The notes under the pieces: model-generated
Told to the model about the DNA's origin: nothing
Database searches by the model: none
The model's input: only the letters and a program-made list of their open reading frames with translations
NCBI RefSeq assembly: GCF_000243455.1
Contig: NZ_AGJL01000001.1
Location: 1 to 64,000, forward strand
DNA from: Methanotorris formicicus Mc-S-70
Lineage (GTDB): Archaea; AGJL01; Methanococci; Methanococcales; Methanococcaceae
Direction of reading: 5' to 3'
Length of the DNA: 64,000 nucleotides
In this document: positions 1 through 31,200 of the stretch, piece by piece
How the letters are laid out: the number at the start of each line of letters is the position of its first letter
How positions within the stretch are numbered: the first letter of the stretch is position 1
Position numbers and translations under genes: made by a program

Positions 1-199
1 ACAAACTCATTTTCTGATAGTTTTTGTAGGTTTTTAACGATAGTCGTTCTGTGAATTCCCGAGACATACTCTGAAAATGCTTTGATAGTTTTATTGGCGT
101 TAGTGTTCTAACTTGTGCGAACTTAGATAACTCCTCCGAACAGTTAAATCCTAAACTATTTATAGAATTAGTGAGTATACTATTAAGTGCTGTTAGCAT
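1..199 (-). pseudogene. IS4-superfamily transposase, N-terminal part, frameshifted and truncated by window edge
   Basis: Reading leftwards from the ATG at 199, this encodes the same N-terminus as copy 2 (MLTALNSILTNSINS...). At 89-92 it has four T where copy 2 has five, and here copy 1 keeps the frame into the conserved segment containing SREFTERLS. At 21-25 it has five T where copy 2 has six, and here copy 1 loses the frame. No active full-length protein can be made unless frameshifting or sequencing error is involved. The catalytic segments lie off the window. Confidence 0.75.
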
Positions 200-299
200 G
201 GAGGTTTCACCGTTTTTTAACGAGTTATTTAAGTACTACCTATTTCTATTTTTGGTTTTAAAGTTAATATTGTTAAATCACACTAATCACACTATCAGT
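1..299 (-). mobile_element. IS-B copy 1, right end only (cut by window edge)
   Basis: This stretch is nearly identical to 30810-31108, the transposase 5' half and terminal repeat of the complete IS-B copy later in the window. The terminal repeat AATCACACTATCAG is at 285-298. The inner terminal sequence is duplicated in tandem (AATCACACT twice, from about 276). The left end and target duplication lie outside the window, so completeness cannot be judged. Homology to the second copy is seen directly; the boundary at 299 is inferred from that copy. Confidence 0.85.
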
Positions 300-29429: not shown

Positions 29430-30008
29430 ATGAGGGTTGAGGTTTTAAGATTAGGACATAGAGGAGATAGGGATAAAAGGATATCAACACATGTTGCTTT
29501 AACAGCAAGAGCCTTAGGGGCTGATAAGATAATATTTACTGTAGAAGATGAACATGTTGAAGAAAGTGTAAAGAAGGTTGTAGAAAATTGGGGAGGAAAT
29601 TTTAAATTTGAAGTTGTAAAAAAATGGAAGGGATATGTTAAAAATTTTAAAAATAATGGAATCGTGGTTCATTTAACAATGTATGGAGCAAGTGTCAATG
29701 AGATAATAAATGAGATAAAAGAGAAATTTAAAGAAAAGGATATTTTAATTATTATAGGGGCGGAGAAAGTTCCAAAAGAAGCGTATGAACTTGCTGATTA
29801 TAACATATCCATTGGGAATCAACCACATTCGGAAGTTGCTGCACTTGCAATTTTTTTAGATAGATTATTTGAAGGGGAAACACTCTATAGAGAATTTGAA
29901 AATGCAAAGATTAAGATAGTTCCTTCAAATGATAAAAAGGTTGTTATAAGATCTGACAGTGTGATTACGAGAATCCTTTCTTTATTAGCTCTTTACTGCA
30001 CTCTTTAA
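29430..30008 (+). CDS. trm56: tRNA (cytidine-56 2'-O)-methyltransferase, C-terminus altered by IS-B
   Basis: The SPOUT-family enzyme methylates C56 in the T-loop of archaeal tRNAs. Seen: [20 protein letters not shown] at the start, HLTMYGAS near residue 83, [11 protein letters not shown] and [23 protein letters not shown] is inserted right after codon 174: residues 175-192 (starting SDSVITR) are IS sequence. Joining the outer sides of the TAAGA duplication restores the reading ...VVIR-KIKNY-stop, so the ancestral protein had 179 residues. The catalytic core is intact and the enzyme is probably active. ATG follows GAGGG. Confidence 0.93.
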
Positions 30009-31108
30009 TCACTTCATAGAATGATAATCCATATTTGTGGCTTAAATATTCTATACAGTTTGATACCATTGCTATAAACCTAACAAACCCAATATTGCTC
30101 TTTTCAGACGTTAGGTAATTTCCCTCAACATCTAAAATCGATTTATCTCTTCTATGCTTTTCTTCTATCTTTGGTCTCTTCATATACTCGCTTATTATGT
30201 TCTCTGCCTTCTTTTTATGGTTTGTAGAGACCAGATACTTAGGTTTTTCTGATTTTCCATCAACACTGCAACGATTTTAACTCTACCAACATCGGGAATA
30301 TTGACCACTTTCTCGGATAATCTAAACTTTATTCCATTAATAGTCCTTAATTTAAGCTTTTCTTTCTCGAAATCCCTCTTAAATAGTCCTTCTACCTTAA
30401 CCTTCTTACCGAAATATTCAACTATCAGGTTTTCCCTAAGTTTACCAATATATTCCATTCCCAATTCTTTAGATTCCTTCATAATTTTCTTTGTCGTTAC
30501 AAAAGTGTCTACTACGACCGTCCCGATATCTATATGAGTTAAGAATCTAATAATTTCGATGAATATGTCTGTGGATTTTTTGCCAAGTGGTTTTATTGTA
30601 GTGTAAATCGAATATATCCCTTTTTTCGTGATAAATACAGCAGTTTATCTGCTCTTGATATGGTTTGCTATGTCTTTCGATGTAGTTATATCGAATATTG
30701 CAACCATAAACCTTTTTACTCCATCTCCTTAGTAGCGTTGAATCGATTATTGCAGTGTATTTAAATCTATTGTCATCAAAAATATCGGGAAGGTTGGATA
30801 GTTGAGTATACAAACAAAACTCATTTTCTGATAGTTTTTTGTAGGTTTTTAACGATAGTCGTTCTGTGAATTCCCGAGACATACTCTGAAAATGCTTTGA
30901 TAGTTTTTATTGGCGTTAGTGTTCTAACTTGTGCGAACTTAGATAACTCCTCCGAACAGTTAAATCCTAAACTATTTATAGAATTAGTGAGTATACTATT
31001 AAGTGCTGTTAGCATGGAGGTTTCACCGTTTTTTAACGAGTTATTTAAGTACTACCTATTTCTATTTTTTGGTCTTAATTTTAATAGTGTTAAAATCACA
31101 CTATCAGT
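29952..31108 (-). mobile_element. IS-B copy 2, complete, IS4 superfamily
   Basis: The 1157-bp element is flanked by a 5-bp direct repeat TAAGA (29947-29951 and 31109-31113). Near-perfect 14-bp inverted repeats lie at 29953-29966 (CTGACAGTGTGATT) and 31094-31107 (AATCACACTATCAG), one mismatch. It is nearly identical over 300 bp to IS-B copy 1 at the left window edge. Insertion replaced the end of trm56. The transposase is frameshifted. Confidence 0.92.
29965..31015 (-). pseudogene. IS-B transposase, multiply frameshifted
   Basis: The transposase reads from the ATG at 31015 but is broken into four frames (31015 to about 30900; about 30900-30547; 30482-30195; 30183-29965). At 30904-30908 five T replace the four of copy 1, causing the first shift. 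IIDSTLLRRW gives a candidate first catalytic aspartate. The last part contains YMKRPKIEEKHRRDK, an exact Y(2)R(3)E(6)K signature of IS4-superfamily enzymes. No full-length protein is expected from this copy. Confidence 0.88.
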
Positions 31109-31200
31109 TAAGAAAGATTAAGAACTATTGAAATTTTTGTAATGTTAATAATTACAAAGAAATTCACAAAGAACTACAATATCCACAAAAAGGGGGAAAT

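Follow-up and report, generated by a model that had tools for sequence, protein, structure and literature searches.

The trm56 gene of Methanotorris formicicus Mc-S-70 carries an insertion sequence directly after the codon for R174, and its reading frame now closes with 18 codons of the element in place of the gene's own last five. With a probability of roughly 87%, the element inserted at this point with a near-neutral outcome, leaving an enzyme that still methylates C56 and bears a functionless tail. The insertion is best read as an ordinary, tolerated event at a permissive and freely varying gene end, and we infer a recent insertion and a Trm56 protein that is produced, folded and active. 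All positions given below refer to the window, i.e., the whole stretch of 64,000 nucleotides that was analysed (contig NZ_AGJL01000001.1, positions 1 to 64,000).

Boundaries of the insertion in trm56

In its current form, the trm56 open reading frame occupies positions 29430-30008 of the plus strand and encodes 192 amino acids followed by a TAA stop. It is identified as Trm56 by PF01994 (residues 54-172; 1.7e-51, 173.6 bits against a cut-off of 25) and by the NF003048 equivalog (residues 2-176; 4.5e-84, 280.9 bits against a cut-off of 223), and a search of the whole genome found the gene to be single-copy. Based on the profile matches and an alignment of 21 homologues, residues 1-174 (29430-29951, plus strand) are host-encoded and comprise the entire SPOUT domain, while the remaining 18 residues (29952-30005, plus strand) are encoded by the element, antisense to the 3' end of its transposase gene. 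Codon 174 is AGA with its last base at 29951, and the insertion sequence of 1,157 bp with its transposase on the minus strand spans 29952-31108; an earlier note made from the sequence alone had likewise placed it right behind codon 174.

The element is bounded by a left terminal inverted repeat, CTGACAGTGTGATT (29953-29966, plus strand), and a right one, CTGATAGTGTGATT (31094-31107, minus strand, read from the other end), which match at 13 of 14 positions. Three such inverted-repeat sites are present in the window against 0.05 expected by chance. The outermost left base of the copy in trm56 is T, in contrast to the A found at 41 of 44 left ends. The flanking TAAGA target-site duplication described in the earlier note is found on both sides (29947-29951 and 31109-31113), and its right copy is followed by AAG ATT AAG AAC TAT TGA, the displaced old 3' end of trm56 (31114-31131, plus strand). 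Joining the flanks in frame restores the original end as the note had rebuilt it, R-KIKNY-stop with the stop at 31131, and this end position fits that of the homologues.

We take both junctions as correct because the duplication is exact (expected at one copy in about 1% of cases by chance, our estimate from base composition) and because the flanks rejoin in frame. The interior of the element is less certain than its junctions, since near-identical copies can get mixed during assembly. That the insertion is an assembly artefact, with trm56 joined to a collapsed repeat copy and the true gene uninterrupted, is highly improbable: the draft genome comprises 121 contigs, many of which start or end within the element, and a matching duplication is lacking at 11 of the 14 complete elements, but here the duplication is exact on either flank and the rejoined frame stops where homologues stop.

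Upstream of trm56, larC is found in the window as well as in the sister species and in Methanocaldococcus. Downstream follows hisI, which in the relatives checked is located elsewhere and far from trm56, so that the trm56-hisI order must have been made by a rearrangement of whatever age; the block conserved 5' of hisI starts at about 31144 and resembles the hisI upstream region of the sister species. The synteny of hisI can therefore not be used to place the old 3' end of trm56, and the duplication and the end position carry that step. Both the distance between the two genes in relatives and the resemblance of the sequence from about 31144 to the hisI upstream region would also suit a recombination between two element copies that put trm56 beside the hisI region and left KIKNY-stop as a chance reading. 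We regard this as quite unlikely, given that all five bases of the duplication match (about 1% by chance, by the same estimate), that an exchange between two copies would usually abolish such a match and that the stop lies at the expected place. The rearrangement may be older than the insertion.

A high-copy element with a ready-made tail

The element in trm56 shows what is expected of an insertion sequence, that is, terminal inverted repeats and multiple dispersed copies. Exact element ends occur 96 times in the 1.82 Mb genome, and BLAST returned 49 matching pieces. This high copy number is one reason why the assembly is fragmented into contigs and raises the risk of mis-joined flanks; some of the 11 complete elements without matching duplication are probably mis-joined or recombined. 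An exact 5-bp duplication was found at three of the 14 complete elements including the copy in trm56, with about 0.14 expected by chance as estimated from base composition. Contig C1 itself starts within another copy (window positions 1-298, right end at 285-298) that may contain a short duplication of part of the end repeat.

The transposase gene (29968-31015, minus strand) is broken across several frames in the window copy. A read-through consensus of the transposase has a weak match to the DDE_Tnp_2 profile PF04693 (26.3 bits, cut-off 20.2) that covers only residues 234-331, which tentatively suggests a DDE enzyme of ISC1217 type. Transposase matches and exact element ends are absent from the sister species, while several copies are found in one other genome (G010) and a single short match in another (G016). 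Our literature search found nothing on the elements of this species and one mention only of the ISC1217 group.

Nearly all full-length copies show a change of transposase frame at an A6/A7-GGG run (window positions 30620-30650), with six or seven A depending on the copy; the frame change may stem from programmed frameshifting, from decay or from an error in the homopolymer. In several element copies (e.g., loci L031 and L032 compared to window positions 30195-30300), the transposase gene contains a palindromic segment of 47 bp with the core GAAATGCTTCGCATTTCGTTGCTCGCTTACTTCGTAAGC. The segment has seven occurrences in the genome, of which at least two (C19:9434 and C80:2269) fall outside the listed element copies, and it resembles a small mobile palindrome. 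Shorter elements of ca. 355 bp (C6:18765-19117), 356 bp (C9:19008-19361), 739 bp (C39:14231-14967) and 861 bp (C2:75570-76428) share the same end repeats and are MITE-like deletion derivatives.

A survey of the stretches around all 96 element ends spoke against any special targeting of gene ends: only 14 ends are crossed by open reading frames with 40 or more codons beyond the element, most of the recognisable cases being truncations in mid-gene. Genes interrupted in this way encode a CobN-type chelatase (L118, contig C2), a Csx1 protein with CARF domain (L143, contig C20), another transposase and a protein whose homologue in the sister species has an open frame of 416 amino acids (L185, contig C89); one further insertion is located close to the end of a PAP2 gene. 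The tails that these 14 frames acquire are 1, 3, 5 or 18 residues long. Of the three frames by which a gene can run into the element from the left, two hit a TGA within four codons, and the third stays open for 18 codons. The 18-residue tail is also found, there with T as first residue, on two other open reading frames of the genome, an orphan on contig C82 and the truncated gene on contig C89 mentioned above. The tail of Trm56 is thus a generic by-product of landing in one particular frame, and the sole distinction of the trm56 case is that the host gene was nearly complete at the insertion point.

We propose that the multi-copy element transposed into trm56 directly after the R174 codon and duplicated 5 bp of target, with the transposase gene oriented against trm56. 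In this orientation, and in the sole frame that escapes the TGA stops of the inverted repeat, ribosomes would translate 18 codons of the element before reaching TAA. The enzyme would thereby exchange a short, non-conserved and lysine-rich tail for a more hydrophobic one of 18 residues, exactly the length that the earlier note had given, and would keep the SPOUT domain with its catalytic function in full, as well as the C-terminal segment as far as conservation extends. The most likely outcome would be near-neutral, with C56 methylation continuing and the tail without function.

Trm56 C-termini and the fate of the enzyme

We compared the end of Trm56 to 21 aligned homologues, i.e., the sister species and 20 others, with end positions counted by eye. 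Both the element and the tail are absent at trm56 of the sister species and of the 20 other homologues in all genomes where the gene was read, so that no relative in this set carries the tail without the insertion sequence. The stop codon follows one to four residues after the R174 column in 18 of the 21 homologues, and longer natural C-termini extend 7 (L059), 12 (L011) or 18 residues (L017) past it. Homologues had been expected to match KIKNY at this point; they agree in where the protein ends but differ in the letters, with terminal residues such as RNK, RK, RKP, KKDK and EK, most of them short and lysine-rich. KIKNY is therefore lineage-specific and not conserved, and the end positions place the insertion at the last conserved column, before a tail that is variable both in its residues and in its length. 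The sister-species Trm56, which is 87% identical to the window protein and free of the insertion, ends in SNDKKQVIIKKDK, and the C-terminal stretch of 11 residues in a Methanocaldococcaceae MAG (L061) equals the window protein up to R174 with a single difference (I for V).

The catalytic core is intact, as the earlier note had stated. In an alignment of diverse archaeal sequences, the invariant columns of Trm56 including R14, R17, G110, K113 and N130-E135 are all kept and, like the SPOUT domain as a whole, lie upstream of the insertion, and the open reading frame has no additional lesion. Between the window and the sister species, trm56 has a dN of 0.059 and a dS of 0.52, a dN/dS of about 0.11 that spans the whole time since their divergence and mostly reflects the period before the insertion. 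With the Methanocaldococcaceae MAG as outgroup, seven unique substitutions fall on the window lineage and nine on that of the sister species, and there is no acceleration. Judged from these comparisons, trm56 is under purifying selection and shows no decay.

It is nevertheless conceivable, if unlikely, that the insertion impairs Trm56 and has set the gene on the way to a pseudogene, be it that the new tail destabilises the protein or marks it for degradation, or that loss of the basic tail weakens tRNA binding. The new tail closes with SLLALYCTL and is more hydrophobic than the native one, the composition of C-termini influences protein expression in bacteria (PMC7246954), and the same element truncates CobN, Csx1 and the frame with the long sister-species homologue. 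The otherwise intact reading frame, the absence of amino-acid acceleration and the existence of natural tails of 7, 12 and 18 residues argue against such impairment. The solved relatives also speak for a tolerated change, as they differ widely at the C-terminus (the 8x6k chain has 151 residues and aligns only to residue 155; 2yy8 has 201 residues). An AlphaFold2 model of the 192-residue protein (from seven sequences) has a good core but a pLDDT below 50 at residues 148-192, so that it is no evidence that the tail is harmless.

The near-neutral insertion that we favour agrees with work on other enzymes of this type. Reviews describe an active Trm56 in Thermoplasma acidophilum that carries a large additional domain at its C-terminus (PMC5372735, PMC9508554), and fusion of ThiS to the C-terminus of SPOUT enzymes leaves them able to fold and to bind AdoHcy (PMC5372735). 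The suggestion of the earlier note that the insertion is tolerated is thus well supported, if indirectly, by the single gene copy, the intact core, the low dN/dS without acceleration and this precedent (PMC5372735). Its suggestion that the insertion is recent is supported only in part: the target duplication has stayed intact and the element differs little from other copies (98-99% alike), yet the event is not datable.

That the tail has been retained for a function, e.g., an effect on the stability of the dimer or on how it binds tRNA at high temperature, is the least probable reading of all, and nothing suggests here that the tail matters. If it were functional, it would be a new C-terminal element derived from a transposon, and new coding sequence would have arisen in a single step. 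As we read it, trm56 is a clear case of a host protein being extended, and not destroyed, by the ready-made tail of a high-copy element, and draft annotation will record the element-derived C-terminus as belonging to the tRNA enzyme.

Comparison with known systems

Our literature search turned up no closely comparable case of a Trm56 with an element-derived tail. The element resembles insertion sequences of the ISC1217 type (PF04693) in its size range (ca. 1.16 to 1.25 kb), its short terminal inverted repeats and its weak yet above-threshold transposase match, and differs in that this match is confined to the C-terminal part of the profile and that the transposase of the window copy is broken. 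The host protein is like other archaeal Trm56 (PF01994, NF003048; 2yy8, 2o3a, 8x6k) throughout residues 1-174 and in being encoded by a single gene copy, and the adjoining larC is common to the window, the sister species and Methanocaldococcus; what sets it apart is the replacement of its final five residues by 18 element-encoded ones. With the Trm56 of T. acidophilum and its HDPD-like domain (PMC5372735, PMC9508554), it shares the presence of extra C-terminal sequence, though the addition there is a predicted domain on an enzyme shown to be active, whereas here it is a short and apparently recent tail that originates from the non-coding strand of a transposase gene.
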